DNA from: a virus
Length of the DNA: 22,464 nt
IMG/VR virus record: IMGVR_UViG_3300003794_000015
Coordinates: 1-22,464 of that record
Direction: 5' to 3' (one strand)
Under the pieces are notes generated by a model, which was given only the letters and a program-made list of their open reading frames with translations, was not told the origin of the DNA and did not search any database. Numbering within the stretch: position 1 is the first letter of the stretch; each line of letters begins with the position of its first letter. Both the position numbers and the translations under genes were made by a program. Of the stretch, positions 1,990 to 22,464 are shown one piece after another.

Positions 1990-2008
1990 TCGGTTGGACT
2001 CGGTTTGG

Positions 2009-2491: not shown

Positions 2492-2500
2492 GTCGCCCCC

Positions 2501-3582: not shown

Positions 3583-3714
3583 TCACTGGCCGGATTCCGG
3601 AGCCGGTGTGACGTCGATCGACATCGCTTCTTCATGCGTCGCTGGCCCGCCTTGTTGATCGGTCGGCACTACGGGGTCAAGCTGTGCTTTGAGACGTGGG
3701 TCCATAGCTGGCAT
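3583..3714 (-). CDS. Small protein between scaffold and capsid (43 aa)
   Basis: An overlooked short gene in a 340-nt gap. The chosen start, ATG 3714, has AGGGGAG at a 5-nt spacing. The product begins MPAMDPRLKAQLDPVVP and is acidic and proline-rich (VTPAPESGQ end), with no membrane segment or cysteine motif. An upstream in-frame ATG behind GGAGG would give 56 aa. Function is unknown. The place between scaffold and shell genes suggests a minor head-assembly role, which is inference only. The frame is open, has a good ribosome-binding site and lies in an otherwise empty stretch of the late operon. Confidence 0.5.
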   Translation of the reverse strand: MPAMDPRLKAQLDPVVPTDQQGGPATHEEAMSIDVTPAPESGQ

Positions 3715-3791
3715 CTCGACTCCCCTAGCCACGAACATGGTGAACAACGAAACCATCTCTAGCTGCCTCCATGTCGTGTGTGGTGTTGGTT

Positions 3792-3803
3792 CACCTTATT
3801 TAT
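3792..3803 (-). promoter_or_regulatory. TAAATA-type site upstream of the capsid genes
   Basis: GATAAATAAGGTG on the minus strand lies just after the scaffold stop and about 80 nt before the 43-aa gene. No good -35 hexamer is visible. It belongs to a recurring set of TAAATA sites in gaps of this prophage (see findings). A role as an internal late promoter is inference. Confidence 0.35.
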
Positions 3804-3816
3804 CGTTGGAAGCGAA

Positions 3817-4920: not shown

Positions 4921-4938
4921 CGCGGTTCCCTTCTTGTT

Positions 4939-5301
4939 CTAGTTAAGTGCTGCGTTCACCACCTTGATAACGTCGTCACGACGCTTCTCGGCATGCGCCT
5001 TCTCAGCTTTGGCGCGATTGATCTCCGCCTCGCGGTTCCCCTCGGAAGCGGGCAGGTAGTTGTTCTTCTCCATCCAAGTCTTTAGCTGGCTGCCGGATTC
5101 GATGAACGATCGCTCGCCGCCGGCACCAGCGACCTCAAAGCCCTTCCATCCGGTCCAGGCCATCGCACTGACCTGCGGTGTGTCGATCACCTTCTCCGTC
5201 TTCTCCCCGCAGCAATGCGGGGTGTCCGCCCGGGACGCAATCGTTCGCGCATACGTATGGCGGGTTCCGCACTGTGTGCACACCGATGAGTACGTCGGCA
5301 T
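4939..5301 (-). CDS. FmdB-like zinc-ribbon protein of the head module
   Basis: The 120-aa product starts MPTYSSVCTQCGTRHTYAR and has a second cysteine pair in PHCCGEK, giving a Cys-x2-Cys ... Cys-Cys zinc-ribbon of the FmdB type in the first 35 residues. It is followed by a short linker (VSAMAWTGWKGFEV) and a Lys/Glu/Ala helix (about 85-120). Small zinc-ribbon proteins of this kind are often encoded after the portal gene in podoviral head modules; their role is not settled. ATG 5301 has GGGAGGT at 5 nt and shares one base with the portal stop (TGATG), so translation is probably coupled. A TTG one codon earlier is less likely. Confidence 0.65.
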   Translation of the reverse strand: MPTYSSVCTQCGTRHTYARTIASRADTPHCCGEKTEKVIDTPQVSAMAWTGWKGFEVAGAGGERSFIESGSQLKTWMEKNNYLPASEGNREAEINRAKAEKAHAEKRRDDVIKVVNAALN

Positions 5302-7379: not shown

Positions 7380-7386
7380 CGGGTTG

Positions 7387-7402
7387 CCCTGTTGTTCTTG
7401 TT
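7387..7402 (-). promoter_or_regulatory. AACAAGAACAACAGGG leader element of the portal gene
   Basis: This 16-nt sequence immediately precedes the portal start and is repeated exactly before the terminase large subunit gene (8875-8890). It ends in the Shine-Dalgarno-like AGGG. CA/AAC-rich tracts upstream of a ribosome-binding site can raise translation; that role here is inference. Looser relatives precede the scaffold and capsid starts. Confidence 0.5.
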
Positions 7403-7417
7403 GTTGGCATCACGACA

Positions 7418-8864
7418 TCAGAGGCCCATGCGGTCCGCTGATCGGCGCTGGCGAACCTTCCGGTCGTGCTCCCTCAATGCATCGTTGAGGGTCCATCCCT
7501 TATTTACTGATGATCGTGCAGCGGGGTTGCCGACGCCGGATGGCCTAACCCCTATTCCGATTGCCGGACCGCGCGTCAGGAACGATTGAGGACGCTGCTC
7601 CAGGCTGCGGCGCAAGTCCTCCGGCTTGACCGCCAGACACAGGTAGCGAAACGCATCGGCGCCGTGGCTCCACTGGTCGTGAGCTGGCGTGTCGCTGTAC
7701 TGCCTACGGTCGGAGTCCCACTTGCGGCTGTAGTTCCGCAGCGCTTCCAGGCCTCGTGAGCAGCGATCGGCGTCAATCACGATCGGATACGTCCGAAGAA
7801 CCTTTCGAGTCGCGTCGATCCCGTGATAGACGCGGTTGCCTGCGTCAGGGTTTGGCACTCTCTGCGTCGGAAGCCCGTGCTCAATCAGCGTGTCCATCGC
7901 CGACTTCCGGCTGGCGAATGTCCGGTGCAGCGCGTCGTGCGGAACCCAGCACGAGTCGTACTGGTAGGGCTTGAGTAGCAGGCGCTCCGCCAGCAGGTCG
8001 GCGTCGAGGCCGCTCTCCTCGAAGTACTCGATCACCCGGATCTCGCCACCGATCACCTGCCAGAACCACACAGCGGTCGCGTCGTTGAACCCGATGTCCA
8101 TCGCGATCGACACCGGGTACTGGGGATCGTGGGTAATCTGGGGCCGGATCTTGTTGTCCGTCTCCAGCTGTTGGATCTGCTTGCCGTAGTACGAGCCGCG
8201 CTGCGCAGCCTCGAAGCTGCATTCGTACTCCTGCTCGTACTCCGCCTCGTCCATATCGCGGCGAAGCTCTTCCAGCTCATGTCGCCCAAGGAGACCTGAC
8301 GTGCTTGCCTTGAGGTGAAGCAAGAAGAATCGCTCGGGGTCGGCCAGCGCCTTGCGGTACATGTCCCAAAGGCCATTGCCCTTTCCCTTCGGCGTACCCA
8401 GGAACACTGCCCATCCCTTGCGGTCAGACAGTGCGGGACGAACGACCTCGCCCCAAAGGCTTAGCTTGACCTGCGCAAACTCGTCGATGATTACGCCGTC
8501 GAGGTATAGGCCGCGCAGGCTGTCTGGGTTGTCGGCGCCGGTGACGTAGATCTTGGAGCCGTTCACCAACTCGACGTACAGCTCGCTCTCGTTCACCTTC
8601 CTCGCGACAGGTGCTGCGTACTGCTTGAGGTAGCTCCAGGCGATCTTCTTTGCCTGTGCTGCGGTCGGTGCGATGTATGCGTACTGAGGGTTCTGCTTCT
8701 TACTGTAGAGAGCCCGCGCGATCAGGTCGTTGACCGACATGACGGTCTTGCCGGCGCGGTCTTCGACGATGACAAATCATGACGGCCCAGCGCTGTATGC
8801 GCGAATGGAACGGCATGAACACAGCGCGTGGCTGGTACTTCAGCTGCACTGACGCTGAGGTCAT
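7418..8864 (-). pseudogene. Terminase large subunit, frameshifted at Walker A
   Basis: The enzyme is the ATP-driven packaging motor and headful or end-cutting nuclease. The C-terminal 440 residues are intact and clear: Walker B in LYLDGVIIDEFAQVK, the coupling motif LGTPKGKGNG, and RNase H-like nuclease acidic residues in SIAMDIGFNDATAVWFW and HDQWSHGADAFRYL. The N-terminus lies upstream in another frame: ATG 8864, with GGGAG at 8 nt, encodes MTSASVQLKYQPRAVF and then RWAVMICHRR. Between HRR and AGKT the frame shifts, because CGGTCTT (forward strand) occurs at both 8743-8749 and 8757-8763. Removing one 7-nt copy restores ICHRRAGKTVMS, the expected Walker A. As read, no full-length motor is made. 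An assembly error cannot be excluded. Confidence 0.85.
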
Positions 8865-8874
8865 CGTGTGGTCT

Positions 8875-8890
8875 CCCTGTTGTTCTTGTT
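8875..8890 (-). promoter_or_regulatory. AACAAGAACAACAGGG leader element of the terminase gene
   Basis: Exact 16-nt copy of the element before the portal gene. It spans the end of the small terminase gene and carries the ribosome-binding site of the large subunit gene. Conservation at the same position before two different genes points to selection rather than chance; a translational-enhancer role is inference. Confidence 0.5.
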
Positions 8891-9341
8891 ATTCATCGTC
8901 AAACGAGATCTCGTCCGCTTCGATCACGCGGCCCTGCTCGTCAAGCACCGTCGTGTCGAGCGCCGTTGATGGCAGCGAGTGCTCGATGCGGATCGTGTTG
9001 TTCTGGTTGATCTGCTGCGCCTTCGGGGCGGCGTAGTACGCGGCCGAGAACTTTGCGCAGTCGATCCGCTCTTTCAGCGTTGCCTTGCGGCGGATCGGAA
9101 CCAGTTGTCCGCCGACCACCAGCAGGTCATCGAACTCTGCGTCGGGATCGGTCGCGATCAATGCCAGCAGCTCATGCGGAAGTAGGCCTGCCTCTTGCGC
9201 TCGAAGCCGCATTTCTGAGACGAACAGCGGAGGACGATTCGGAACGTGGCTGCTAACCGGCCGGTCAACCACCTGGAAGCCACGCAGATCCTCAACGGCC
9301 GTCTGCAGATTGCTGTTCTCTTTCTTGTACTGCTTCGGCAT
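8889..9341 (-). CDS. Probable terminase small subunit
   Basis: The 150-aa product lies directly upstream of the large terminase gene. It is the likely DNA-recognition partner that brings the packaging motor to viral DNA. The middle contains EMRLRAQEAGLLPHELLALI followed by an acidic stretch and LKERIDCAKFSAAYYAAPKA, a block I associate with small terminases of this phage type. The C-terminus is acidic (EADEISFDDE), as is common for the part contacting the large subunit. ATG 9341 has GAGGG at 4 nt, and its start lies inside the preceding small gene. Assignment rests mainly on position and the RIDCAKFSAAYYAPK-like block; sequence alone does not prove it. Confidence 0.6.
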   Translation of the reverse strand: MPKQYKKENSNLQTAVEDLRGFQVVDRPVSSHVPNRPPLFVSEMRLRAQEAGLLPHELLALIATDPDAEFDDLLVVGGQLVPIRRKATLKERIDCAKFSAAYYAAPKAQQINQNNTIRIEHSLPSTALDTTVLDEQGRVIEADEISFDDE

Positions 9342-9510
9342 CGGCCCTCTTCCTGCGTTGATGGCGCTTCACCGCTTCTAGGTGAGCCGCCTTGTTGTTC
9401 TTTGTGGTCCATCGGTCCCGGTGTTGCCGCAGCAGCGGGCCGTTGCGATGCATCCTGCCGCTGCCGCTCGGATGGATGAAGCCGGGATCAAGATCGTTGT
9501 CTTTGCTCAT
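9292..9510 (-). CDS. Small basic HNH-like or DNA-associated protein, function unknown (72 aa)
   Basis: The product begins MSKDNDLDPGFIHPSGSG and is rich in His, Arg and Lys (RMHRNGPLLRQHRDRW, then VKRHQRRKRADAEAV). ATG 9510 follows GAGGA at 7 nt. It overlaps the first 50 nt of the small terminase gene in another frame, and it opens the late operon. It has too few aligned His/Asn residues to call a true HNH nuclease, although such genes often stand beside terminases. The composition suggests nucleic-acid binding. I treat it as a real hypothetical gene because of its ribosome-binding site and position. Confidence 0.5.
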   Translation of the reverse strand: MSKDNDLDPGFIHPSGSGRMHRNGPLLRQHRDRWTTKNNKAAHLEAVKRHQRRKRADAEAVQEREQQSADGR

Positions 9511-9902
9511 TGCGCGTTCCTCGATGTCGTTCGGAAAGTCAGCAAGCGGCATAGATCGCCTAGAAGCGCTTCAAATCGATTTCATCAACGTCAGTGGCGT
9601 CATCTATCGTTCGGCGACGAAATAAACGCGTATATGCCGTTTAAATCGCTCCAGCGTTCTTGACGATTAAACTGCCGCTGAGAATCTTCAATTCTTTGCC
9701 ACAGCAGAAAAACACCGCAGAAATCAACCGGTTAGCCAGACTCTAGTCAACAGTGATCGAACGTTTGATCCAATGGAGAGAAACACTCACCACGTTTCAT
9801 TGGTGAAAATCCCCATAAGAAGTCGCTGAGCATACTGTTGACGCCGACTTTCTTTTCCGCCACTATTTATGACTAGCCTTAACCCATGTTATATGATCGA
9901 TA
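9511..9902. promoter_or_regulatory. Late-operon upstream control region (no gene seen)
   Basis: About 390 nt without a convincing gene, upstream of the terminase-led operon. Dyads seen: AAACG-9 nt-CGTTT at 9624-9642, a near-palindrome GATCGAACGTTTGATC around 9755-9770, and TCACCA-8 nt-TGGTGA at 9787-9806. A minus-strand TTGAAG (9686-9691) and TAATCG (9664-9669) are 16 nt apart and could be -35/-10 boxes. A CATAAATAGTGG site lies near 9860-9871. These fit operators and a late promoter, but none is proven. Confidence 0.45.
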
Positions 9903-10172
9903 TTATTTATCGATTTCGGAGTTTTGATCAGCTTCAGTCATATAGATGTGACCTTGCACTTCCAACGTCATCGCTACCAACCACGCCCGCTCGGCCTTGT
10001 ATCGCTGGACTGCATCATTAATCAGTTGAAGCAAGGTGACTTTTAGTGTTGGCTCAATGCCAAGTCGATGCACCCGTTGGATGAGAGTCGCCGGCGTTCC
10101 GTTAGACATGAGACGGGACGGGAGACAGACGATTACCGTCTGTCTAGGGAATTTGATTGCTTGCATCTCCAT
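9903..10172 (-). CDS. Hypothetical phage protein (89 aa)
   Basis: Not recognised. The product begins MEMQAIKFPRQTVIVCLPSR and has an amphipathic helical middle (LIQRVHRLGIEPTLKVTLLQ, then LINDAVQRYKAERAW), then a polar acidic end. No cysteine motif or membrane segment is present. ATG 10172 follows AGGA at 5 nt. A TAAATA site lies about 25 nt upstream, and the stop codon overlaps the start of the late control region. The helical pattern might suggest a small DNA-binding or regulatory protein; position next to the late control region fits that, but it is a guess. Confidence 0.55.
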   Translation of the reverse strand: MEMQAIKFPRQTVIVCLPSRLMSNGTPATLIQRVHRLGIEPTLKVTLLQLINDAVQRYKAERAWLVAMTLEVQGHIYMTEADQNSEIDK

Positions 10173-10266
10173 ACCATTCCTGATCGATTCTATGAATGGT
10201 ATTTAGTGCAAGAAAAGAAGCCTGTTGGCCGTTTGGAACAACAGACTTTTAGTGGGATTGGATCGT

Positions 10267-10428
10267 TTACTTCAGTTCGATCACAGCAGTGATGCGTTTG
10301 AGCTGAAATCCAGCCTCCTTGATCTGCTGCCGCAGCTTCGCTCGCGCCCGTTCTTCGGAATCAGCCTCGATCACCTCTTTGAATACCGGCAGCTGGTTCT
10401 TCAGAGTGAAAATGAACTGGAAGCGCAT
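10267..10428 (-). CDS. Small phage protein with Arg/Lys-rich helix (53 aa)
   Basis: A short gene missed by a 60-codon cut-off. The product starts MRFQFIFTLKNQLPVFKEVI and ends in FQLKRITAVIELK, with a charged helix between (EADSEERARAKLRQQIKEAG). The beta-alpha-beta-like pattern is compatible with a compact domain. ATG 10428 follows GGAG at 6 nt. Codon positions look coding, and the opposite-strand frames here are only shadows. It lies alone between the 89-aa gene and a terminator. Function unknown. Confidence 0.65.
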   Translation of the reverse strand: MRFQFIFTLKNQLPVFKEVIEADSEERARAKLRQQIKEAGFQLKRITAVIELK

Positions 10429-10517
10429 TTGGAACTCCGTTGCTTGTTGATGAGTCCAGTTTCAGCTCAGCTCGGTCCAACGACAACGGCGACACGTGGG
10501 CAAATACACCCAAAGAA

Positions 10518-10537
10518 AAAGGGCCCGTAGGCCCTTT
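10518..10537 (-). terminator. Rho-independent terminator after the 10557-10880 gene
   Basis: AAAGGGCC-4 nt-GGCCCTTT forms an 8-bp stem followed on the minus strand by TTCTTTGGG, with the stem's own T run before it. It lies about 20 nt downstream of the basic protein gene and separates the accessory block from the small genes to its left. Confidence 0.85.
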
Positions 10538-10556
10538 GTGTCTCTCAGCACAGCGA

Positions 10557-10880
10557 TTACTTCTGTGCAGCTTGCTTCTTGATGTTTGCCAGGTACGTCG
10601 ATGCGCCGGCTTTTGACAGCCTTGCTTGCTCCATGAATGCCTTCAGGATCTCCTGACGAGAAGCTGATTTCATCTTGGAGTAGATATCCCGGGCGATATC
10701 TGCCTTCGACGCTCCCTCTTTGGTCTTAGGTGGCAGTGCCTTCTGCGAAGACGGCTTCACCATGACGCGCGCAGCTTTAGCCGAGATCACTGCCTTCGGC
10801 ACGACTTTCGAAGGAGCGCGTTTCTTCGCTACGGGAGCAGTCTTCCTAGCGACGGGCTTGGTTGCTTTGGGCGTGGCCAT
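10557..10880 (-). CDS. Histone H1-like basic protein with C-terminal helical domain
   Basis: The 107-aa product has two parts. Residues 1-55 are a Lys/Ala/Pro-rich tail (PKATKPVARKTAPVAKKRAP), like the tails of H1-like nucleoid proteins. Residues 60-105 form a compact helical domain (KADIARDIYSKMKSASRQEI, then AFMEQARLSKAGASTYLANI), a pattern I associate with small winged-helix-like proteins of phages and plasmids. ATG 10880 follows GGAGGA at 7 nt. A terminator follows. A DNA-compacting or regulatory role is inferred from composition; no enzymatic motif is present. The gene stands alone between accessory genes. Confidence 0.65.
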   Translation of the reverse strand: MATPKATKPVARKTAPVAKKRAPSKVVPKAVISAKAARVMVKPSSQKALPPKTKEGASKADIARDIYSKMKSASRQEILKAFMEQARLSKAGASTYLANIKKQAAQK

Positions 10881-10988
10881 CTATCAGTCCTCCGTTGGTT
10901 GCGGTACAGCCCAATGTCCAACGGACAGCGGGGACAGACAACCGGCGATTGATGGGTGTTTGACCGCGCTCGGCCCCACGTCGCGATC

Positions 10989-11693
10989 TTAGTTGCAGCT
11001 GTACATCTCCGCAGTGTCGCCCAGGTATACGACCTTCCGGCCATCGGCTGTGTACTCGCCTGATCCGGTCTGTCGCACTGACCCAAACTGAGCAAGGCGC
11101 TTCAGTCGCTCGGCCTTCGACAAGCCTGGCGCACAGTGATCGAGCGTCGGCTTCTCTTTGCCAAGTGCATCTTCGACTTCCGGAGGAACTACCGGCGCAG
11201 TGTCGAGATTCCATTTAACGTCGATTTTGGAATAGCGAGAGTAGTCTTCCACGCGGACGAACTGTGCAAACTCATGACGTAGGCCTCTTGCTTTCCCTTG
11301 CTGATCTACTAGACGAGTGAAATCGCGGACGGCAATCTCCTTGCTGAACAGGTTGAATCCATCTTTATCTAGAAATCCAAAGCTTAAGGTTCCTTCACGA
11401 TTCTTTGGTGCAGAAAGATAACTTGGATATTGATCAAATACCAACTCAACGAACATTTGCCCGTCAACGAGCTTACTTCGCGCATTTAACGACATGCCAA
11501 GAGCACTACGGGTGTCCAAGCTCCACGTTGTTACCTCCTCGTATGGCCTTGCGTGTAGCTTCTGCCTAGCCTCATATAACTTATATATTCCGACGGCAGC
11601 TGCCGCCACCACGGCTACAGCAATGATTATTGCGATTGCGATCTTTAGGCCGCCCTGTAGAATTGTCCTTACCAAAACCATCCCCTTAGGCAT
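10989..11693 (-). CDS. Membrane-anchored hypothetical protein
   Basis: The 234-aa product has one clear N-terminal transmembrane helix (about 14-38; LKIAIAIIIAVAVVAAAAVG), then a short linker and a soluble domain of about 190 residues rich in beta strands (SKLVDGQMFVELVFDQYPSY and similar). Two cysteines near the C-terminus (DHCAPG and the terminal SCN) could form a disulfide if the domain is periplasmic. It is not a recognised family. The gene is AT-richer than the virion genes, a sign of a recently acquired accessory gene. The first ATG has only a weak AAGGGCGA far upstream; an ATG at codon 5 abuts AAGGGG, so the start is uncertain. Confidence 0.55.
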   Translation of the reverse strand: MPKGMVLVRTILQGGLKIAIAIIIAVAVVAAAAVGIYKLYEARQKLHARPYEEVTTWSLDTRSALGMSLNARSKLVDGQMFVELVFDQYPSYLSAPKNREGTLSFGFLDKDGFNLFSKEIAVRDFTRLVDQQGKARGLRHEFAQFVRVEDYSRYSKIDVKWNLDTAPVVPPEVEDALGKEKPTLDHCAPGLSKAERLKRLAQFGSVRQTGSGEYTADGRKVVYLGDTAEMYSCN

Positions 11694-11722
11694 TCAATCT
11701 AGCTTCACAGGTCGCCCTTAAG

Positions 11723-11732
11723 GTAATATTAC
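11723..11732. promoter_or_regulatory. GTAATATTAC palindrome upstream of the membrane protein gene
   Basis: A perfect 10-nt AT-rich palindrome, flanked by partial GG/CC symmetry, lies in the short gap between the HEPN gene stop and the membrane protein gene. TAATAT could act as a -10 box on the minus strand, but no good -35 is seen. Operator or promoter role is inference. Confidence 0.3.
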
Positions 11733-11743
11733 ACCTAGTCGCC

Positions 11744-12532
11744 TCATGGACGTTTACCTGGATCGATCTTAATCTCTTGCAAATGTACCCGATACGCCTT
11801 TACAAGAGAATCAGGCATAAACACAAGCTTCTCAATGTCATCCAACATCTCAGGATATAGATAAAGCACTGGATTCTGTGCATTCAATCGCCATTGCGCT
11901 CTAATCATCTTTCTCGCACGCCCTGCATACATTGGATTTTGCCAGATAAGCGCAGGGCGGCTGGGGTGATCTTTCTTCTTCATTACCCCTTCTAACAATC
12001 CACCGTTGATCCTGAACAAATGTGGTGCGCCAACGCTACTTTCAGTCACATCCTTCCAAGCTTTGTCAGCGACCGCTTGATTGGGAGATGAGGGAGGAAG
12101 CCAGAAGACCTTAAAGATTTGGCAATATCGACGCAACTCCCACACAGTGCGGTCGAGGTCCAACAGTGGATATCCATGTATGGAATACGGAACCTCTAAG
12201 TATCTGAATTTACCCACATTGGCTAGATGGGCGATGTACCTACGCGAGCTTTCCGACAGATCAATTTTGAATGGCAGCTTCTCGCATAGCGCCAATGCCC
12301 TATCAAGCTCATGCCCGATCTTTTTTGCAGGAATCCGATTATAGAGAAGTATTGACTTGAGGTACTTTTCAATCGCCTGCTGAGCCGACCAGAGATATTG
12401 CGGATAGAGTTCCTGCTTGCAGGCTAGACGCGCCAGGATGTAATCCCTATCCGCTTGATCACGAAACGATTGCGTGGCGAACGAGTTCACGAAGCGCTCA
12501 TGTTTATCTCGAGCATTGACATATCCGACCAT
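11744..12532 (-). CDS. HEPN-domain protein, candidate RNase or toxin
   Basis: The 262-aa product carries a HEPN-like four-helix segment at about 28-110. It reads DRDYILARLACKQELYPQYL, then WSAQQAIEKYLKSILLYNRI and KKIGHELDRALAL. The QQAIEKYLK and GHEL blocks are characteristic of the superfamily. An R-x4-H arrangement is present in RRYIAH (Arg97, His102), the motif linked to metal-independent RNase activity in active HEPN proteins. The C-terminal half is not recognised. ATG 12532 follows GGGAG at 7 nt; it starts 12 nt after the zinc-ribbon gene ends, so the two are probably co-transcribed. The DNA is clearly AT-richer than the head genes. A defence or toxin role is inference; no MNT nucleotidyltransferase partner is adjacent. 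Confidence 0.6.
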   Translation of the reverse strand: MVGYVNARDKHERFVNSFATQSFRDQADRDYILARLACKQELYPQYLWSAQQAIEKYLKSILLYNRIPAKKIGHELDRALALCEKLPFKIDLSESSRRYIAHLANVGKFRYLEVPYSIHGYPLLDLDRTVWELRRYCQIFKVFWLPPSSPNQAVADKAWKDVTESSVGAPHLFRINGGLLEGVMKKKDHPSRPALIWQNPMYAGRARKMIRAQWRLNAQNPVLYLYPEMLDDIEKLVFMPDSLVKAYRVHLQEIKIDPGKRP

Positions 12533-12544
12533 CAACGATCTCCC

Positions 12545-12937
12545 TTAGTGATAAGTGGACTTGCATGAAGGGCATCGCCATCTAGCAACTTGCCGGAATG
12601 GCCCAGATAGTTCATTAACGCGAATCTTTGCTGTCCTTGCGTCAAAGCATCCTGTGCAAAAGAAGCCTTCTTCACCAGCGAATTGATAAACGCCGTTTAT
12701 CAAGGTGGGCTTAGTCGAGTCTTTCACGACAAGTCGTTCCGAAAGTTCTCTATTCTCGTCAAGGAGACGCGCAAGGCGCGTCTTCAGTTCTGCCGCTTCG
12801 ACCTTCGCGTCGGCCAAGTCAGCGGCTAGGTCGGCAAGTAGCATCTTGAAGTCAGCGTCCTCGATCTTCTTCGACAGCTCTCGAAGCTTCCCAGTGATGG
12901 TCAGTGCGCTTTGCAGTGCAGCGATGACGTCCGCCAT
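12545..12937 (-). CDS. Coiled-coil protein with C-terminal zinc ribbon
   Basis: The 130-aa product has a long helical coiled coil (about 15-70; AAELKTRLARLLDENRELSE). A zinc ribbon follows: Cys-x2-Cys in FFCTGCFDA and Cys-x2-Cys in RWRCPSCKSTYH. ATG 12937 follows GGAGG at 6 nt. It precedes the HEPN gene in the same direction with a 12-nt gap, suggesting a two-gene unit. Similar coiled-coil/zinc-ribbon proteins occur widely on prophages and plasmids without a known role. It could be a nucleic-acid sensor or a partner of the HEPN protein; this is inference. Confidence 0.65.
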   Translation of the reverse strand: MADVIAALQSALTITGKLRELSKKIEDADFKMLLADLAADLADAKVEAAELKTRLARLLDENRELSERLVVKDSTKPTLINGVYQFAGEEGFFCTGCFDARTAKIRVNELSGPFRQVARWRCPSCKSTYH

Positions 12938-12976
12938 TTCATATCCTCCCTTGCCCGCGTCACGATGGTGTACACA

Positions 12977-13012
12977 GTCACGGGGAGGGTACGTTGAGCG
13001 GCACCCCGTGAC
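12977..13012. promoter_or_regulatory. 9-bp inverted repeat between divergent genes (putative operator)
   Basis: GTCACGGGG and CCCCGTGAC are perfect inverted copies 18 nt apart, in the gap between the minus-strand zinc-ribbon gene and the plus-strand coiled-coil gene. The two half-sites are centred about 27 bp apart, roughly 2.5 helical turns. An operator controlling the divergent pair is plausible; the binding protein is unknown. Confidence 0.45.
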
Positions 13013-13084
13013 ATCCCTTGAATAGGGTGCTTCCCCGCGGACGAGCTGGTGCCGCTGTCCAACGAGGAGATCGAGGAAAATTGA

Positions 13085-13519
13085 ATGAACACACTACCTG
13101 CTGTAAATCAACAAGAGATCGCGCGGCGGATTACTATGGCGCTAGCGAAAATTGCGAACTACAAGGAGAGGATAGCGGACATTGAGCGGTTGCTGAACGA
13201 CGCAAAGAACGAGTTTGACACCGTATCAGCAATCGTCAACTATGCGGAGGCCCATGAACGTCGACGCACCTTATTAGTTGGACTGTTCGTATATCCGAAC
13301 GACTATGGTGATTTCGAACCTGAGTCCCCCGACTTGGTCGTGCAGTTTCGGGAACGACTGACCTTCCTTGAAGGCTCGATGGACTCGTATGAGCGAAAGA
13401 TTAAGCGGCGCCGCGACGGCATTAGTTTAATGGAACGCGACATTGAACTATTGAAGAAGATCCAGCTACACTATTCACGGTCGCCATTCGCCCACATGGG
13501 CATTGTGGACGGAGCGTAG
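13085..13519 (+). CDS. Coiled-coil hypothetical protein next to the origin region
   Basis: The 144-aa product begins MNTLPAVNQQEIARRITMAL and is mostly helical. It has an N-terminal coiled coil (about 10-60) and a second helical pair (about 95-130; SYERKIKRRRDGISLMERDI), separated by a loop (VYPNDYGDFEPESPDLV). No enzymatic motif is seen. ATG 13085 follows GAGG at 8 nt. It is the only plus-strand gene in the middle of the window and abuts the AATACRG repeat cluster within 3 nt of its stop. A role in replication control is suggested by position only. Confidence 0.6.
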   Translation: MNTLPAVNQQEIARRITMALAKIANYKERIADIERLLNDAKNEFDTVSAIVNYAEAHERRRTLLVGLFVYPNDYGDFEPESPDLVVQFRERLTFLEGSMDSYERKIKRRRDGISLMERDIELLKKIQLHYSRSPFAHMGIVDGA

Positions 13520-13521
13520 AA

Positions 13522-13783
13522 GGAATACGGTGAAATACAGTGGAATGCAGCACCGTATTCGTTTTATCCCGCATGAACAGTGGAGAAAATACGGCAAATA
13601 CAGTAAATACGGTACTTTTATATAAATTGGATAGACCGCCAATAGTAGAGAGATAGAGAGGCGCTTTTACTGTATTTGCTGTATTTACCCTATTCCGCCA
13701 CCTCTAACTCCGCGTCAACACAGGGCTTTTTCAAGTCCACGAGGACCGGCTCACAGTATTCCACCGTATTCCCGCTGTATTCC
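13522..13783. other. Candidate replication origin: AATACRG repeats in inverted halves
   Basis: About 13 copies or variants of an 11-nt element (GGAATACGGTG / CAAATACAGTA type) lie in four clusters. Copies at 13522, 13532 and 13542 and at 13587, 13595 and 13604 point right; there is an opposite copy at 13551-13561. Copies at 13668, 13678 and 13687 and at 13752, 13762 and 13773 point left. Spacing within clusters is 8-11 nt, about one helical turn. Between the two halves is an AT-rich stretch (13614-13660, with TTTTATATAAATT) that could melt. The region lies between genes, immediately downstream of the VapE-like ATPase and PrimPol. Iterons beside their own initiator are known from satellite phage P4 and many plasmids; origin function here is inference. 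Confidence 0.6.
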
Positions 13784-13812
13784 TATCGTCTTTCAACGCT
13801 GTCAAAAGGAAA

Positions 13813-13830
13813 GCCGCCCGGTGGGGCGGC
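13813..13830 (-). terminator. Rho-independent terminator of the replication operon
   Basis: GCCGCCC-4 nt-GGGCGGC gives a 7-bp GC stem followed on the minus strand by TTTCCTTTTG. It lies 30 nt after the ATPase stop and would keep replication transcripts out of the repeat cluster. Confidence 0.8.
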
Positions 13831-13859
13831 TTCATCACCTGGACGGGCGGGACAACGAT

Positions 13860-15236
13860 TTAGGCAGCGTCCAGCGTGCGGTCGAACGCATTCCACTGCT
13901 TCTTGACGACGACATGGAACTTCTTGTTCGTCGCCGTCTTGAACCCGTTCACGCTCAGCCACTTGCCAACCTCGCCGGCATCCTTCGCCGACGGGCTCAT
14001 CGTTCCTGTGACGCGCTGGATGATCTGAGTTGCGTTCAGCTTCTCGATCGTTGCTGCTGCCTTCTTCAGTTCATCACCGACGACGACCAGCGGCGGAGCC
14101 TTATACGGATCGACGATCGCATCGGAGATCATGTCGATCAGCGGCATCGGCCGCTCGAACCGCTTGTTGCTGTCATACAGCTCCTGGCGTTCGGACGGAT
14201 CGAACCAGAACTGCTCGCCAGCTCTGTACGCCGCGTACACCTGCGCCCACAGTTGCTGAATGTCGATCTCCTTGACCCTGCGGACCGCCTGGACCGCGAT
14301 GTTCCAGTACCGGCGGTTCTCGCCGGTCTCAGGGAGGAACTGCTCGTCGTTAACTGTCGCGCAAATGCCGGTCCGGCGTGGATAGCTGTTGATCGACTTG
14401 GCATACGGCGGCCTGAAATCGTCGTTCTTCTTCGTCAGCCAGGCGCGAAGAGCTGCGACGTCGCTCTTGCGGAAGATGCTGTCGAGCTCACCCAGCTCAA
14501 CGATCCAGTGGCTGACAACAAGTGCAACGCTGTCCTTGTTGTTCGGATCGAGGCTCAGGCCGTCCTGGAAGAACTTGCTGCGCGGCGGCACAAGACTCGC
14601 GAAGAACTGCGTCTTGCTGAGCCCCTGATTGCCTTGGAGGACGAGGACGCCTTCGGTGCCAAGGAAACCGCGTTCGCGATGCTCATCGCTTTCGAACGGA
14701 GTGCCGTGCATCAGCAACGCGACGTTTGCAATCATCCAGCGGCGTACGATCTTTTCCTTCAGAGCGGTACTGAAATCGTCGGTCTCAACAATCGCGTCGT
14801 AGACGCATTGAAGGCGATCGGTGCCGTCCCACTCGGCGCTGAGGATCCAGTCGCGCGCTGGGTGATATGCATGGTCAGCGCCAATCATCACAAGGTTGCT
14901 GACGGCGACTTCGTGCGGGTACTGCTGCTTGCGAGCGCAGTCTGCGACGTACTCGAATGACTCGTTCCGCTGCGTGTCGGCGAAGAAGTCTCGGCCGGAT
15001 GCCTTGATCTCCAGCTCCTTCGTCATCTCGTTGTACCTGCATGTGATCCCGTAATGGGCAAGAAGCGCCTCGGTGTTCTCCTTGCATCCGACTGGCCTAG
15101 GCTCACCACGCCCGTTTGCGCGAACGATCGGGAAGTCGCAGTCCGTATCGTTGATCTCGGCTTCGAGCGCAGCCCTCTCCGCTTCAAGCTCTGCCAACCG
15201 CCTTGCGCGGTCATGCTTGTTCGTTGCGCTGCTCAT
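13860..15236 (-). CDS. VapE/VirE-family P-loop ATPase, probable replicative helicase-like protein
   Basis: The 458-aa protein belongs by motif to the virulence-associated E family, P-loop ATPases found in many prophages next to primases. Walker A is VLQGNQGLSKTQFF (Gly202 to Thr209), and the Walker B-like acidic segment is HWIVELGELDSI (about 243-253). It is followed by an RAWLTKKNDDFRPPYAKSIN block and a conserved arginine pair in ETGENRRYWNI (about 304-313), likely sensor/finger residues. The N-terminus has a coiled coil (about 8-28). The family is thought to unwind DNA at initiation, by analogy to D5-like helicases. ATG 15236 overlaps the PrimPol stop (ATGA) behind AAGGAG at 5 nt, so the two are translationally coupled. 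A terminator and repeat cluster follow. Confidence 0.85.
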   Translation of the reverse strand: MSSATNKHDRARRLAELEAERAALEAEINDTDCDFPIVRANGRGEPRPVGCKENTEALLAHYGITCRYNEMTKELEIKASGRDFFADTQRNESFEYVADCARKQQYPHEVAVSNLVMIGADHAYHPARDWILSAEWDGTDRLQCVYDAIVETDDFSTALKEKIVRRWMIANVALLMHGTPFESDEHRERGFLGTEGVLVLQGNQGLSKTQFFASLVPPRSKFFQDGLSLDPNNKDSVALVVSHWIVELGELDSIFRKSDVAALRAWLTKKNDDFRPPYAKSINSYPRRTGICATVNDEQFLPETGENRRYWNIAVQAVRRVKEIDIQQLWAQVYAAYRAGEQFWFDPSERQELYDSNKRFERPMPLIDMISDAIVDPYKAPPLVVVGDELKKAAATIEKLNATQIIQRVTGTMSPSAKDAGEVGKWLSVNGFKTATNKKFHVVVKKQWNAFDRTLDAA

Positions 15237-16111
15237 GTCAGCTCCTTGATTTGTTGTTTGAGTTGTTCAAGGCGGGCGTTGATCTTGGCCGCCTTCACCC
15301 TGTCGATCACGCGCTTTTCAGTGATCCAGCTCGTGTCGCATGCCGAGCAATACAGGACGCCAAAGCCCGCATCCTTCCGCCAGAACGCGGCGCTCGCCGA
15401 CTTGTCGTCGTGGAATGGGCAGCGGCAGATGTACTTCCCGCCGACCTCAGTCTGCTCAAGCGTGATGTGAGGGCTGGAACGGAAGCCGACGACAAGCGAC
15501 CACGGCAGGCGATAGCTGCCGTCAACCTTCGACGATGGCCTAGCGATCGGCTTGTCGATCGGACCGTAGTGGGACGCCAGAGCGAAAGCCCAGTCCGCCG
15601 AGCCCACGCCTGTTGTCATCGCGGCTGGCGCCCACCGGTACGCACCGACATCCGTCCTCGACGGCGGCAGGACGACGTAACCGCCATCACCGCGGATGTC
15701 GATCCCTTCGAGCACATTTGCGCGATTCGACACCCGCCGCGAGCGGTCATACGCAACGTAGACGTGCGCACCGCCTGACGGGGTCTGAACCGTCTTCGTA
15801 TCGATCTGTGGATCGTCCGTCGTCGCTGTCAGGAACTGCTGCAGCGCCCTGCGGCCGTTCTTGTCGTTCTTCATGTCGATGTCGATCACCCAGACGGAAG
15901 ACGCTGCGCCGGTCGCGAGCCCGATGTTTGCGTCTGGATGTTCAGCCCACCATGCCTCAATCGCCGAGCAATCACTGGAGGCGTCCTTGTGGCCGCGGGA
16001 ACCGGCGAGCGGCACCTTGGTGCCGGGGGTGAGAGGGAACACGCGCCAACCGAGCGACGCGTAGTGAAGCGCCCACTGCTTGATGGGCGACTGTTCGGAT
16101 AATTCGTTCAT
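15233..16111 (-). CDS. Primase-polymerase (PrimPol) with CHC2-like zinc finger
   Basis: The 292-aa protein begins with the bifunctional primase/polymerase domain (about 10-185). Motifs are the catalytic acid pair VWVIDIDM (Asp77, Asp79), the SGGAHVY motif (Ser112 to His116) and GIDIRGDGGYVVLPPS with a third acid (Asp138). The C-terminal part holds a zinc finger like that of DnaG primases, CRCPFHDDKSAS with Cys231 and His234, then YCSACD with Cys255 and Cys258. It would prime DNA synthesis at the phage origin. I chose ATG 16111 because AGGA lies 5 nt upstream and the family N-terminus starts here; the open frame runs 25 codons further but that part is non-conserved. The CHC2-like finger after the PrimPol domain is an uncommon order. 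Confidence 0.85.
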   Translation of the reverse strand: MNELSEQSPIKQWALHYASLGWRVFPLTPGTKVPLAGSRGHKDASSDCSAIEAWWAEHPDANIGLATGAASSVWVIDIDMKNDKNGRRALQQFLTATTDDPQIDTKTVQTPSGGAHVYVAYDRSRRVSNRANVLEGIDIRGDGGYVVLPPSRTDVGAYRWAPAAMTTGVGSADWAFALASHYGPIDKPIARPSSKVDGSYRLPWSLVVGFRSSPHITLEQTEVGGKYICRCPFHDDKSASAAFWRKDAGFGVLYCSACDTSWITEKRVIDRVKAAKINARLEQLKQQIKELT

Positions 16112-16131
16112 CCTGGTCCTTTGATAGGGGC

Positions 16132-16206
16132 CGGCCCAAGCTCCAAGACCGCGGCAACGGTAGAACAGGACGGATGCATTGCGCACCCTTAACGGAGCTT
16201 GGGCCG
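16132..16206. promoter_or_regulatory. 13-bp perfect inverted repeat upstream of PrimPol
   Basis: CGGCCCAAGCTCC (16132-16144) and its exact complement GGAGCTTGGGCCG (16194-16206) flank 49 nt. The structure lies 20 nt upstream of the PrimPol start on the minus strand. In RNA it would make a long strong stem ending close to the ribosome-binding site; in DNA it could bind a dimeric regulator with spaced sites. Which one applies cannot be told from sequence. Confidence 0.6.
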
Positions 16207-16285
16207 TTTGATTGGTTAACTGTTTGCCCTAAATCTTTTGAGTTGGTTGCCGCCAACTGTGAGCCAGTACTCAACTTCCTAGTCA

Positions 16286-16300
16286 CTCACATCTGTATTT
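16286..16300 (-). promoter_or_regulatory. TAAATA-type site between the nuclease and PrimPol genes
   Basis: GATACTAAATACAGATG on the minus strand lies in the 242-nt gap that holds no gene. It includes AAATACAG, the same core as the origin repeats. It may be a promoter -10 element for the replication operon or an extra binding site of the origin-repeat protein. Confidence 0.35.
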
Positions 16301-16353
16301 AGTATCAGTCTCAAAATTTCTTCAGAAAACAGCCGACCGGCTTAGGGTCACCG

Positions 16354-16890
16354 CTACCAAAGAGCGCGCGCTTCCAACTGGTCCACGATCCTCTCGTACT
16401 CTTCTCTTGTTGGTGGTCGATCGTGTTTCCACAGCGATAGCACCAGTTTGGCTCGCCTCTCACACTGCTCCGGCGTAGAACGGTCGCGAGGTCGAGGGAC
16501 GTGCTCGCAGGTATCCCTCTTCTTCCGTCCTTTCCCTGTCTGGATAAGCGCGCGCAGTTCGCGGTCCTTCCAATCAGTATTTCGGCTGAGACCGCTGACA
16601 CTATTTGTCAGATGGAACCTGTACGACAGTTGGTCGATCCACCACGCTTCGAGGTCAGCGAGTTGATCGACGGGACACTGGTCGACGACCTTCGCGGAGA
16701 TCGTCTGCCCTTCGTTGAGCAGCGCTCGAATGTGGCCACACTTATGCGTGCTACCACCTCGGCGCGCTTCGCTGAGATGCTGTCTCAAGCGTTTTACAGG
16801 GTCGATTGAATGACCACAGTAGAACGGTCTGTTGTCGTTCCCGTGCAAAACATAGATGTACTCAAGCTCTTCTGCTCGCTGTTGTCCCAT
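16354..16890 (-). CDS. GIY-YIG nuclease (free-standing homing endonuclease-like)
   Basis: The 178-aa product has a GIY-YIG domain in the first 90 residues. The two tyrosine motifs are in EYIYVLHG and FYCGHS, then DPVKRLRQHLSEARRG with the conserved arginine and a metal-binding glutamate in ADLEAWWIDQL. The basic C-terminal region (about 100-178; KDRELRALIQTGKGRKKRD) could bind DNA. I chose ATG 16890 because GGAG lies 6 nt upstream; a TTG two codons earlier is less likely. It stands alone between the small early genes and PrimPol. No intron splice signal or split exon is evident, so it is probably free-standing, a mobile gene inserted into the replication module. Confidence 0.75.
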   Translation of the reverse strand: MGQQRAEELEYIYVLHGNDNRPFYCGHSIDPVKRLRQHLSEARRGGSTHKCGHIRALLNEGQTISAKVVDQCPVDQLADLEAWWIDQLSYRFHLTNSVSGLSRNTDWKDRELRALIQTGKGRKKRDTCEHVPRPRDRSTPEQCERRAKLVLSLWKHDRPPTREEYERIVDQLEARALW

Positions 16891-16898
16891 CTGCAACT

Positions 16899-16916
16899 CC
16901 TAAATCTATATTTAGG
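16899..16916 (-). promoter_or_regulatory. CCTAAAT-ATAG-ATTTAGG palindrome over the nuclease ribosome-binding site
   Basis: A perfect inverted repeat with 7-bp arms and a 4-nt centre overlaps the TAGGAG of the nuclease gene. It may hide the ribosome-binding site in an RNA hairpin, act as an operator, or contain a TAAATA -10 box. Self-nucleases are often tightly controlled in this manner, but the role here is inference. Confidence 0.5.
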
Positions 16917-17000
16917 GCGCAGATAGGGCAACGTTGAGCTTGATCAATCTTTAAATGCCCGTTCCGTTGGGGCGCCTCCCTTCAGATCACGTTATGCAGA

Positions 17001-17378
17001 TTACTTTTCGTCCTTCAGCTCGTACGTGAATGTGATATAGGACCGGCGGGTACGGAAGCCCGGAAGACCAGACTTGATCGGCTTACGCCCCTTGATCGAC
17101 TTCCTATTGAGCATCACATGCGTGCACCCTTCGCTGATCAGCTCGACTGCCTTCTCGACCAGCCGCCGATCAGCATTCGGATAGATGTAGACCATCCTCT
17201 TGTTGTACCGCAGCGACGTAGTACCGTATCCGGGAATCCGGCGCATGAAGCTGAGCCATTCACGGCAACCGATGACCGGACTGAGTTCCATCAGTTCGAG
17301 CAACTTGCTCCGGTCGTCACCCTCGGCGATGTAGCCCACACCGTACTTGTTCAGTTCAAACATGTTGCCGCCACTCAT
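17001..17378 (-). CDS. Hypothetical early phage protein (125 aa)
   Basis: The product begins MSGGNMFELNKYGVGYIAEG. A middle segment, CREWLSFMRRIPGYGTTSLR and YNKRMVYIYPNADRRLVEKA, is followed by a basic stretch (RKSIKGRKPIKSGLPGFRTR). No known family recognised; the basic part could contact nucleic acid. ATG 17378 overlaps the stop of the upstream 57-aa gene (ATGA) behind AGAGGT, so the two are translationally coupled. An upstream in-frame start would add 12 residues but lacks a ribosome-binding site. Confidence 0.6.
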   Translation of the reverse strand: MSGGNMFELNKYGVGYIAEGDDRSKLLELMELSPVIGCREWLSFMRRIPGYGTTSLRYNKRMVYIYPNADRRLVEKAVELISEGCTHVMLNRKSIKGRKPIKSGLPGFRTRRSYITFTYELKDEK

Positions 17379-17548: not shown

Positions 17549-17613
17549 AAGTTACTCCACATCTGTCTATCAGCACCGTGCTGACGGAAGCCAACTGTGC
17601 TTACGAATCGGTG

Positions 17614-19268: not shown

Positions 19269-19316
19269 CGAGAAGGTGGAGCTGCTTATTTCACAGGCGT
19301 CACCAAGGAGAAGATG

Positions 19317-20453
19317 ATGAACGTATGCAAACACACAATCAAAGGCAAGCAGTCTGACGCTTGGTATTACCGCTTCAACTTCAAAGGGAAGCGGTACTTC
19401 GGCTCGACGGGCCATACGAACAAGACCGAAGCGCTGAAGGTCGCGCACAAGAAGTATCAGGAAGCCGTCCAGTCCAAACAGGGAAACGAAGTGGCGGCGT
19501 CGCTGAGGATTGGGGAAGCGTTCAACACGTTTCTGCGCGCGAAGAAGGCGACCCCAATGATCACGGAGTTGACGTATCGCCTGAAGAAGATGCTCGGGTC
19601 CAAGGTGGACAACAGGACGCACAAGGTGGTCGAGGTGTTCGGATTTGATGGCGCTCGGAAGTTCGAATCGCTGACGACGAAGGACGTCCAAAAGCTGATT
19701 CTTGCGCGCCGCGAGGAAGGGAACAGCAACGGAACGATCCTGACGGAGCTGTCGGCGCTCCATCAAGCTATCAAGCTGATCCGCAAGTTGGAGCACCCTG
19801 TCCCGGACCTTGATTTCGCGGAGCTGAAGAAGGACAACGCGGTTAAGGCGAACACCGGCAGGCTGCGCTACCTCAGCCTGGAAGAGGAGCGGCAGCTCCT
19901 AAACCAACTCCACCCGGAAACGATCGTCCGCGGCGTGTCCTCGGAGGCCGACAACGTCTTCCGGATGCGTCAAGACGCGTACGACCTCACTGTCCTTCTG
20001 ATCGACACCGGCGCTCGGTACAGCGAGATCGCGCAGATCGAATGGAAGGCGATCGACCTCGCGAAAGGTGAGATCTACCTCTACCGGTCCAAGGTGAAGA
20101 ACGAATCGGTCCTGGCGCTGACGAGGCGGTCAGCAGCGATCTTGGCTCGCCGCCGAGACGATAAGCGGAAAGACCAGAGGTTCGTATTCGAGAGCGAGGG
20201 CGGCGGCGCACGCAACTACTGCCCGCGGGCGTTCAACAGTGCTTGCAAGCGTGCTGGGATCGACGGGATCACGCTGCACAGCCTGCGGCACACATGGGCC
20301 AGCCGTGCCGCGCAGAACGGTTTGTCGCTCGGTGAGATACAGCAGCAACTGGGCCACTCAACGATTCAGATGAGCATGCGGTACAGCCACCTGATGCCGA
20401 ATCAGGCGTCTCGTAAGGCGGCCGACATCATGAACTCACTCCAGAACGATTAA
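19317..20453 (+). CDS. int: Tyrosine-recombinase integrase
   Basis: The protein catalyses site-specific recombination between attP and attB. It has an AP2-like N-terminal arm-binding segment (about 15-45; WYYRFNFKGKRYFGSTGHTN), a core-binding domain (about 60-160) and the catalytic domain. Catalytic residues, counted from the first of two Mets, are Arg235 in DTGARYSEI, Lys260 in YRSKVKN, His322 and Arg325 in LHSLRHTW, His348 in QLGHSTI, and Tyr357 in MSMRYSHL. All are present. I chose the second ATG (19317), which is 6 nt after AAGGAG; the first is only 3 nt away. It points towards the tRNA-Thr junction about 1.8 kb downstream, an accessory cassette lying between. Confidence 0.95.
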   Translation: MNVCKHTIKGKQSDAWYYRFNFKGKRYFGSTGHTNKTEALKVAHKKYQEAVQSKQGNEVAASLRIGEAFNTFLRAKKATPMITELTYRLKKMLGSKVDNRTHKVVEVFGFDGARKFESLTTKDVQKLILARREEGNSNGTILTELSALHQAIKLIRKLEHPVPDLDFAELKKDNAVKANTGRLRYLSLEEERQLLNQLHPETIVRGVSSEADNVFRMRQDAYDLTVLLIDTGARYSEIAQIEWKAIDLAKGEIYLYRSKVKNESVLALTRRSAAILARRRDDKRKDQRFVFESEGGGARNYCPRAFNSACKRAGIDGITLHSLRHTWASRAAQNGLSLGEIQQQLGHSTIQMSMRYSHLMPNQASRKAADIMNSLQND

Positions 20454-20960
20454 CTACTTCATTTCCTGCTGGACGATTATGTAACACCGTTTCAGCACAA
20501 TCAGCAAGCAGAATATTACTGCAATGCCAAGATAAACGGTACAAAATCGCCCCACAAGCGCGACCGACGGAAATCTCGACAGAATGAGGAATGACGCCAC
20601 CACCAGCATCAAGCACAGCAAAATGCTAAACGCAATGGTGTCCAAAGATTCTCGGCTCACCTTCTTAAATAAGGTGATGTCGACCATTGGACTGGGATTG
20701 GACTTGGCATTGAAGACGAGGGTGTAGATCAACACCAGAAGATTGAGCATGAGTCCGGCGACAATAGACGCGGCGGAAACAATGATGCTCACCACATTCT
20801 CCGATACTTCTGGAACCAAAACAACATGGACGCCGGCCAACAGTGCCGGCAGGCCAAAATGCAGGGCTATTTCCCCGCGTGAAAGCCTTCCCGTTTCATA
20901 GTTTCTTAACGAGAGGAAATGGGATTTAATTATGTTCAATGGACTCAGCTTGGCGAACAC
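20454..20960 (-). CDS. Four-TM membrane protein, candidate moron or defence effector
   Basis: The 168-aa product has four predicted transmembrane helices at about 32-50, 56-83 (VSAASIVAGLMLNLLVLIYT), 106-127 and 138-158. A charged cytosol-like loop (about 84-105) lies between the second and third, and a basic tail follows. No enzymatic motif seen. I chose GTG 20960, 5 nt after GGAGG. It overlaps the end of the upstream gene by about 35 nt, so translation is coupled. Its stop abuts the integrase stop. A membrane protein paired with a soluble partner between integrase and att is a layout common in prophage-borne defence pairs. That role is inference; the family is not named. Confidence 0.6.
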   Translation of the reverse strand: MFAKLSPLNIIKSHFLSLRNYETGRLSRGEIALHFGLPALLAGVHVVLVPEVSENVVSIIVSAASIVAGLMLNLLVLIYTLVFNAKSNPSPMVDITLFKKVSRESLDTIAFSILLCLMLVVASFLILSRFPSVALVGRFCTVYLGIAVIFCLLIVLKRCYIIVQQEMK

Positions 20961-21929
20961 TACCACCTCCTTTTAACGGTGAAGCGTCGGACTTCCACCT
21001 CGGTGCATCCATTCCCCAAGATAGGGCCACATTCTCGGCCACTTCGTCTGCCTCTTTCAGCCAAGCGTCGATGGGCGGGTGGCCATCCGGTCCCGGGAGA
21101 ACCGATAGCTCGATATTGGACGACAGTTTGCTCAGGTTACCTAGATCAACGGTGCGCAGCTTCCCTTGCATTTCCACTTCGAGCTTCACGTTCTCATGCT
21201 TGAAGGAGTCCACCACAAAAATCTCCGAAGGCTTCACCTTTCGATCCACGATCCGCATAAGAGCATCGATATCGGAGAAGTTTGATCGCCGCTTGCTTCG
21301 AATGACTAACTCAACATGTTGAATTTTTTTCCGGTCTGGCTCCGCTAGCGCGTCGGCGACATCGGCTGGTATCGATTTCCTGATTAGACGGATATTTTTA
21401 AGGACGCCCTCCCGTAGGATTGTTTCCATCACAACCCTTGGAACAACTTTGGAGACGGACAGTTCAAAATCTTGGAATCGAAGGCTGAAGTAGTGCTGAA
21501 GGTGCGGGATGGTAAGATCTCGGACGCCCAATGTATTAAAGCGGGCCAATATTAGAAGGCCACGCTTTTGCTGAGCGGCATTTTATCTCTAGGAAGATAA
21601 AACGAGAAGTGAAACGGCCTCATGTCGGCCTCGTCGGTCCCGCGACGATAGCTGATTTGGCGTTTGTTTGTGTGATAGATTTCCGATTCAAACCCATACT
21701 CGCCGGTCTGATATGTACCCGCCACAGAAGAGCTTGTGCCCTTATACATCGACGCAATCATGAACATGCGGCGACTTTGGCCCAGCGAGGCCTGGTAATT
21801 TCTAAGGTTTGATGAGTAGTAGTCCTTCAGGACAGCTCGAAGGCTATTGCCTGCCGCGAAGTTCCACAAGTCCTGTGGCTGCTTGTATTCGTTCTTTACT
21901 TCGACGAGATAGGGCACCAATGAGAACAT
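20926..21929 (-). pseudogene. Accessory gene split by a one-nucleotide frameshift
   Basis: Two adjacent open frames read as one protein of about 334 aa. The first part (21552-21929; ATG 21929 after GGAGG) begins MFSLVPYLVEVKNEYKQPQD and runs to FHFSFYLPRDK. It then leaves frame in the run AAAA at 21581-21584 and stops after 9 more codons. In the other frame coding continues as NAAQQKRGLLILARFNTLGV and on to 20926. That second frame has no good start or ribosome-binding site, only a TTG. Adding one A to the run restores a continuous protein. It may be a real inactivation, an A-run sequencing error or, less likely, a -1 shift. Joined protein family not named. It pairs with the 4-TM gene. Confidence 0.65.
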
Positions 21930-22038
21930 CGCACCTCCCTTTTTTCCGTTATGTACGCCTTCCCCGGCTGATTAGATGCGTTAGGACATGCCGCGTCGAC
22001 CCCTCTGAAGTGGGGGAGGCGTCCATCCGGAAACGAAA

Positions 22039-22061
22039 AAGGCCACCTCAAGGGTGGCCTT
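22039..22061 (-). terminator. Rho-independent terminator after the junction gene fragment
   Basis: AAGGCCACC-5 nt-GGTGGCCTT is a 9-bp stem followed on the minus strand by TTTCGTTT. It lies 20 nt downstream of the stop of the partial gene at the att junction and insulates the moron cassette from transcription entering from the tRNA promoter. Confidence 0.85.
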
Positions 22062-22081
22062 CGATGCTACGGTGTAGCGGC

Positions 22082-22231
22082 TCATTTTTCGCTTAGACGT
22101 TGATGCAACTCTTGATGCATCACGTCGATGTGCAGGAACTGTGGGGAATCAATAGGGTCACGCAGAATCAACGAGTTAGCTTCGGATAGCGTGCGCAGAA
22201 TGCGGGGGATTTCGCGGTGCTGATTCTTACG
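22082..22231 (-). CDS. C-terminal fragment of a phage gene fused in frame to the tRNA half
   Basis: Reading leftwards from the tRNA anticodon, a frame runs KNQHREIPRILRTLSEANSL, then ILRDPIDSPQFLHIDVMHQE and stops at TGA 22082, with a good terminator after it. The composition looks coding. The frame stays open through the tRNA half (VAQLVEQRIRK) up to a TAG at 22267-22265; the only start there is TTG 22249 without a ribosome-binding site. The simplest reading is that attP lies inside or at the start of this phage gene and integration removed its 5' end. The missing part would sit at the other end of the prophage. Function unknown. Confidence 0.5.
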   Translation of the reverse strand, partial: RKNQHREIPRILRTLSEANSLILRDPIDSPQFLHIDVMHQELHQRLSEK

Positions 22232-22264
22232 AATGCGCTGCTCTACCAACTGAGCTACACCGGC
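22227..22264 (-). tRNA. tRNA-Thr (anticodon CGT), 5' half only; attachment-site junction
   Basis: From 22264 leftwards the sequence is GCCGGTG acceptor strand, a normal D arm (GCTC ... GAGC), then GCGCA and the anticodon loop TTCGTAA with CGT at 22231-22229. This matches bacterial tRNA-Thr(CGT), the thrW type, up to the loop. The 3' strand of the anticodon stem should be TGCGC but reads GAATC, and no T arm or CCA follows. Integration at an anticodon loop is a known integrase preference. Here the tRNA is not rebuilt on this side. The CGT isoacceptor can often be dispensed with, because tRNA-Thr(TGT) can read ACG. Confidence 0.8.
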
Positions 22265-22305
22265 CTACCCGCGTGATGCAATTTGCGTCTCTTGGGAAGA
22301 CCGCG

Positions 22306-22335
22306 ACTATAGCAGAGTCTTCGACTGCACTTCAA
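22306..22335 (-). promoter_or_regulatory. tRNA-Thr promoter (TTGAAG-18-TATAGT, GC-rich discriminator)
   Basis: On the minus strand TTGAAG (22335-22330) and TATAGT (22311-22306) are spaced by 18 nt. They are followed by CGCGG, a GC-rich discriminator typical of stable-RNA promoters under stringent control. Transcription would begin near 22299, pass the tRNA half and enter the prophage fragment, ending at the 22039-22061 terminator. Confidence 0.75.
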
Positions 22336-22464
22336 GAGGCGTAGCGTGGGTGCGACTGCGGCCCTTCATCCGATCGGATGGCTCGCAAGTGCAGTTGGTC
22401 ATCCTGGACCGAGTCGCCCTCTTTCCCAGAATCAGACGGACCACATGCTTGAAATCAAGAGGTG
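22336..22464. other. Host flank, no gene recognised
   Basis: About 130 nt of presumed chromosome. It holds a perfect 14-nt palindrome CATCCGATCGGATG (22366-22379) and a small CTTGA-AA-TCAAG hairpin at the edge. I see no open frame or RNA gene that I can support. Confidence 0.4.

Follow-up and report, generated by a model that had tools for sequence, protein, structure and literature searches.

A probable temperate phage junction with a displaced 5' half of a host tRNA-Thr(CGU) gene

Described systems of integration into tRNA genes

The work of Zhao and Williams from 2002 is said to deal with islands and prophages that displace a 5' fragment of the tRNA gene (tDNA) and that use an anticodon-loop site. 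According to the Islander article, 5' displaced tDNA fragments were found in 159/3919 islands and form a minority class (PMC4383910). In tRNA-dependent lysogeny, as published for actinobacteriophages, the core is short, the tRNA is not rebuilt and the cognate tRNA is carried by the phage; its discussion also takes up integration-dependent immunity (Guerrero-Bustamante and Hatfull, 2024; PMC10865867). The replacement of a tRNA outside of the actinobacteriophages is not new in itself, since a replaced tRNA-Leu was reported in Sinorhizobium (PMC11476347). In some integrative and conjugative elements (ICEs) the integrase gene int is driven by the tRNA promoter once the element is integrated (PMC13023037), and for Myxococcus phage Mx8 attP has been placed inside int (PMC6070905).

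The stretch of DNA analysed here, hereafter called the window, comprises the 22,464 bases of a virus record, and its right end is probably a junction of a temperate tailed phage carrying the displaced 5' half of a host tRNA-Thr(CGU) gene, i.e., a junction of a known but uncommon kind. As in the Islander class with 5' fragments, a 5' tRNA half is present at one junction, the crossover falls into the anticodon loop and a tyrosine integrase is encoded; however, this class shows the restored tRNA at the other end, whereas the window shows one junction only. With tRNA-dependent lysogeny the window shares the split host tRNA, which is unrestored at the visible junction, and the short core and the cognate tRNA are found in L009, an element inserted at the same site. 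In contrast to that system, the window contig contains no phage tRNA, and again a single junction is visible. Mx8 is the closest named relative of the window portal protein (34% identity over 80% of the query) and also has a reading frame at the junction, but while its attP lies inside int, the integrase gene of the window is complete, is located on the other strand 1.6 kb from the junction frame, and its frame does not cross the core. The mycobacteriophage systems of integration-dependent immunity have in common with the window a possible frame across the attachment core, whereas the window fragment shows neither a repressor, nor an adjacent int-rep arrangement, nor a tag-like tail.

The right end of the window and its surroundings

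Table 1. Coordinates and support of the features at and near the right end of the window.
Feature	Position	Strand	Support
Tyrosine integrase	19314..20453	+	PF00589 2.5e-25; phrog_1 9.6e-55; 72% identical relative in L002
Intrinsic terminator, downstream of the frame	22038..22062	-	sequence and folding
Phage-side open frame, about 48 codons, TGA at 22082-22084	22082..22226	-	coding status unproven; no relatives found
Likely crossover core ATTCGTAA, 8 bp	22227..22234	-	analogy with L009; putative in the window
tRNA-Thr(CGU) 5' half, 38 nt, acceptor strand to anticodon loop	22227..22264	-	same 38 nt in L009
Host flank upstream of the tRNA-Thr gene, including promoter	22265..22464	-	sequence

A first-pass annotation of the window had placed an attachment junction inside a tRNA-Thr gene, and the sequence bears this out: a tRNA-Thr(CGU) gene is present with its first 38 nt, the break lies right past the anticodon, and after TTCGTAA the sequence switches abruptly from tRNA to non-tRNA phage DNA (Table 1). 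The half is identified through L009, which contains it and the joined flanks of which give a 76-nt tRNA-Thr(cgt) in ARAGORN. Since both ARAGORN on the window and the Rfam tRNA model on the window record returned zero tRNAs, the half is not a whole tRNA, and an Rfam search of the right end yielded sub-threshold matches only, none of them a tRNA. At the visible (right) junction the tRNA gene is not rebuilt. The rightmost 200 bases of the window look like host DNA; a plasmid search for the host gave matches to the tRNA part only. Directly past the stop codon of the phage-side fragment, at 22070-22078, lies an inverted 9-base copy of the tRNA 5' end (CGGTGTAGC), with a chance expectation of 3.4% in shuffles of the 199-bp stretch; a second ATTCGTAAG at 17600-17608 (-), upstream of the ORF at 17621, is probably due to chance.

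As had been proposed, the tRNA promoter is aimed at the phage-side fragment: a promoter-like TTGAAG-18-TATAGT at 22335-22306 (-), approximately 40 nt upstream of the tRNA half (one found versus 0.2 in shuffles), resembles a stable-RNA-type promoter directed into the phage side. The fragment also has a terminator of its own, which is located about 20 nt past the stop codon, and the folding energy of the 61-nt stretch 22030-22090 is -23.8 kcal/mol, with a z of -4.2. A transcript starting at the tRNA promoter should end at this terminator. It is unlikely that the tRNA promoter drives int in the window prophage as in the ICEs mentioned above, because int is oppositely oriented and the terminator lies in between.

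The late genes are read leftward on the minus strand (terminase 8740-7418, portal 7379-5301). At 20454-21929 (-) a three-ORF operon is found, for the ORFs of which there was no convincing Pfam or PADLOC match and no defence family; the first two, 21929-21552 and 21549-20926, overlap around AGCAAAAGC with a -1 shift of frame, so that they may be one gene split by a frameshift or a sequencing error. The sole relative of the integrase in IMG/VR is that of L002, a record that stops at the integrase stop codon, and two distant integrase matches in genome_contigs, where the stretch retrieved contains a tRNA-Leu, were left out of the analysis. Relatives of the portal protein occur in L028 and L030 (100% identical over 17,293 bp) and in the L002 record. 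L030 (IMGVR_UViG_3300025298_000011, 1-17320), whose metagenome number differs from that of the other loci, matches window 1-17293 at 100% identity; it extends the window to the left by 27 nt only and stops at window position 17293, short of the junction. In a scan with the left-edge pattern the L030 record was the sole match and attL was not reached. The attP of the window phage is not rebuildable, since the other prophage end lies outside the contig and L030 gives just these 27 nt more. G001 is syntenic with the window (integrase 72%, portal 68%); one of its ends coincides with the stop codon of the integrase, and the other falls within a late gene, short of the end of its late operon.

Elements split at the same nucleotide of tRNA-Thr(CGU)

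IMG/VR was surveyed with a pattern in which the tRNA-Thr(CGU) 5' half precedes any base except the T that opens the usual TGCG stem. The 14 matching loci comprise four with a split half (L009, L015, L018, and L020), four with complete tRNAs and six that are unrelated. L013, L014, L016, and L021 were dropped as split genes as ARAGORN calls a whole tRNA-Thr in them, and L010-L012, L017, L019, and L022 were dropped as there is no tRNA sequence upstream of the match. L015 and L020 show one identical phage sequence, which leaves three distinct other elements that are split, and all of the split halves end at TTCGTAA, the same nucleotide as in the window.

L009 (1-12288) is the informative one of these elements, because both of its ends are within the contig: the right end carries the 5' half and the left end the 3' half. 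The ARAGORN drawing of the tRNA-Thr(cgt) obtained from its joined flanks has one T-stem mismatch. The shared core is the 8-bp ATTCGTAA, which by analogy is also the likely core of the window, and the host tRNA is restored at neither end. No frame in register with the tRNA runs across the rebuilt attP or core of L009. This satellite-like element has a complete tRNA-Thr(CGU) of its own at 11998-12073 (66.6 bits) with a promoter-like site and a terminator. Its genes code for an integrase that has an arm-binding domain, a terminase, a resolvase-type recombinase, a primase-like protein, and a BsuBI/PstI-type restriction enzyme together with an Eco57I-type methylase. By its short core, the tRNA that is not rebuilt and the cognate tRNA that is carried, L009 fits the published sequence features of tRNA-dependent lysogeny, and it is a strong candidate for tRNA-dependent integration.

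The 5' half of L015/L020 and L018 (L020 about 1298-1336, L015 about 4760-4800, L018 about 7108-7147) is located within phage DNA, upstream of the integrase gene and with phage genes on either side, as would be expected if these were attP sites carrying a tRNA 5' half. The three whole records contain no tRNA above the Rfam cut-off (0/3) and no matching 3' half. Short inverted repeats are visible by eye around the halves of L015, L018, and L020. In L020 no sigma-70-like promoter was found upstream of the half, and on the strand of the half a terminator-like hairpin comes before it, which argues against a simple restoration of the tRNA there.

The open frame across the junction and its possible explanations

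Translation of 22267-22082 (-) gives a TAG followed by an unbroken frame via the tRNA half to the TGA of the fragment, so that the frame noted in the first-pass annotation, in register through the tRNA half up to the TAG, exists as sequence. This TAG sits in host DNA and is therefore uninformative on any phage gene. Only one of the three frames of the tRNA half is open and the phage frame falls into the same one, a match expected in about 1 in 3 cases by chance, and in 16% of dinucleotide shuffles this frame stays open over the 47 codons past the junction. With a model trained on 26 ORFs, hand-picked from the mechanical ORF list, the fragment scores 0.11 bits per codon, whereas true frames score 0.31 +/- 0.18 (17% of them lower) and wrong frames -0.14 +/- 0.21 (12% of them higher); the score is ambiguous and suits wrong frames about as well as real genes. 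Relatives of the fragment were found neither in Pfam, nor in INPHARED (tblastn), nor in IMG/VR (peptide scan), and the collected loci gave chance-level matches only, even at loose thresholds. All matches in PHROGs were weak and start in the tRNA part; the only one with any reach, phrog_10387 (E 0.0044, window 22264-22160 or so, minus strand), was also matched in five of 14 ordinary control genomes, archaea included. As it starts in the tRNA part and matches these controls, phrog_10387 is probably a family built on translated tRNA genes. We regard the frame through the tRNA half as largely a coincidence. Without relatives and with a codon score between those of true and wrong frames, a fragment that is the tail of a cut phage gene is possible but unproven, and nothing requires it. 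Of the earlier proposal that integration cuts a phage gene, the junction in the tRNA-Thr gene thus stands and the cut gene does not follow from the data.

Repressors of integration-dependent immunity lose a C-terminal degradation tag upon integration. The proposed resemblance to this mechanism, in which the cut gene would be a repressor with a product altered by integration as in some mycobacteriophages, is extremely unlikely for the window: a frame possibly crosses the core on the integrase side of the prophage, but this is a likeness of geometry only, and the fragment has no repressor similarity in Pfam or PHROGs, ends with HQRLSEK, a C-terminus that does not look tag-like, and is separated from the integrase by the three-ORF operon; the L009 core without an in-register frame likewise speaks against it. 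It is doubtful that attP is situated within, or at the end of, a real phage gene that integration would cut from its terminator and that may be the final one of the leftward late operon. The fragment and the late genes share the minus strand, the stop codon lies just ahead of a strong terminator, and there are parallels in Mx8, with attP inside int, and in L020, a phage unrelated to the window in which a small last late ORF and a terminator adjoin the attP-like half, although this ORF is uncut; against this stand the missing relatives and a codon score that 12% of wrong frames exceed.

In a further explanation, which is possible though we do not favour it, a short core would be shared with attB, the host tRNA-Thr(CGU) would be destroyed as in tRNA-dependent lysogeny, and a phage tRNA-Thr would be encoded in the missing part of the genome. 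L009, split at the same nucleotide, does so with its 8-bp core and its own tRNA, and the kind is published for actinobacteriophages. However, the window (22.5 kb, an incomplete genome), G001 (26.3 kb) and G007 contain zero tRNAs. Quite unlikely is the combination by which one crossover kills the host tRNA-Thr(CGU), replaced by a phage tRNA, and also cuts the last late gene from its terminator; if true, the same recombination would make the lysogen dependent on the prophage and would shift the end of the late transcript; the tRNA part of this scheme is already found in L009, with both ends in view. An assembly chimera formed at the tRNA sequence is very unlikely: the junction is seen in a single metagenomic contig and L030 falls short of it, but the break is located exactly at the anticodon-loop position of three other elements, and an integrase gene is nearby.

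We prefer the reading by which integration displaced the 5' half from a host tRNA-Thr(CGU) gene. The three other elements split at the same position, among the 14 loci, argue for it, whereas the single junction in view in one contig and the unrestored host tRNA of L009 argue against it. The tyrosine integrase probably recombined with the anticodon loop of the host tRNA-Thr(CGU) gene, and the right end retained the displaced 5' half together with the host promoter; in the orientation that we infer, the phage supplies the other tRNA half. From this promoter a short dead-end RNA of roughly 250 nt would be made, ending at the terminator. The fixed open frame of the tRNA half would mainly meet the phage frame by chance, and at most it would run into the tail of a short gene of the phage, which may be the final one in the leftward late operon. 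The most likely way in which the function of the tRNA is preserved is that a phage-borne 5' half restores the gene at the other end, a route that we put slightly short of even; a replacement or a redundant tRNA has a lower but still appreciable probability.

The case shows how easily one may take the open frame of a tRNA half for a fused phage gene. L009 is a clean two-ended candidate for tRNA-dependent integration that is not among the published actinobacteriophages. Although tRNA-Thr(CGU) is cut at an identical base, these elements handle the damage differently, two phages with a 5' half and one satellite-like element with a replacement tRNA.
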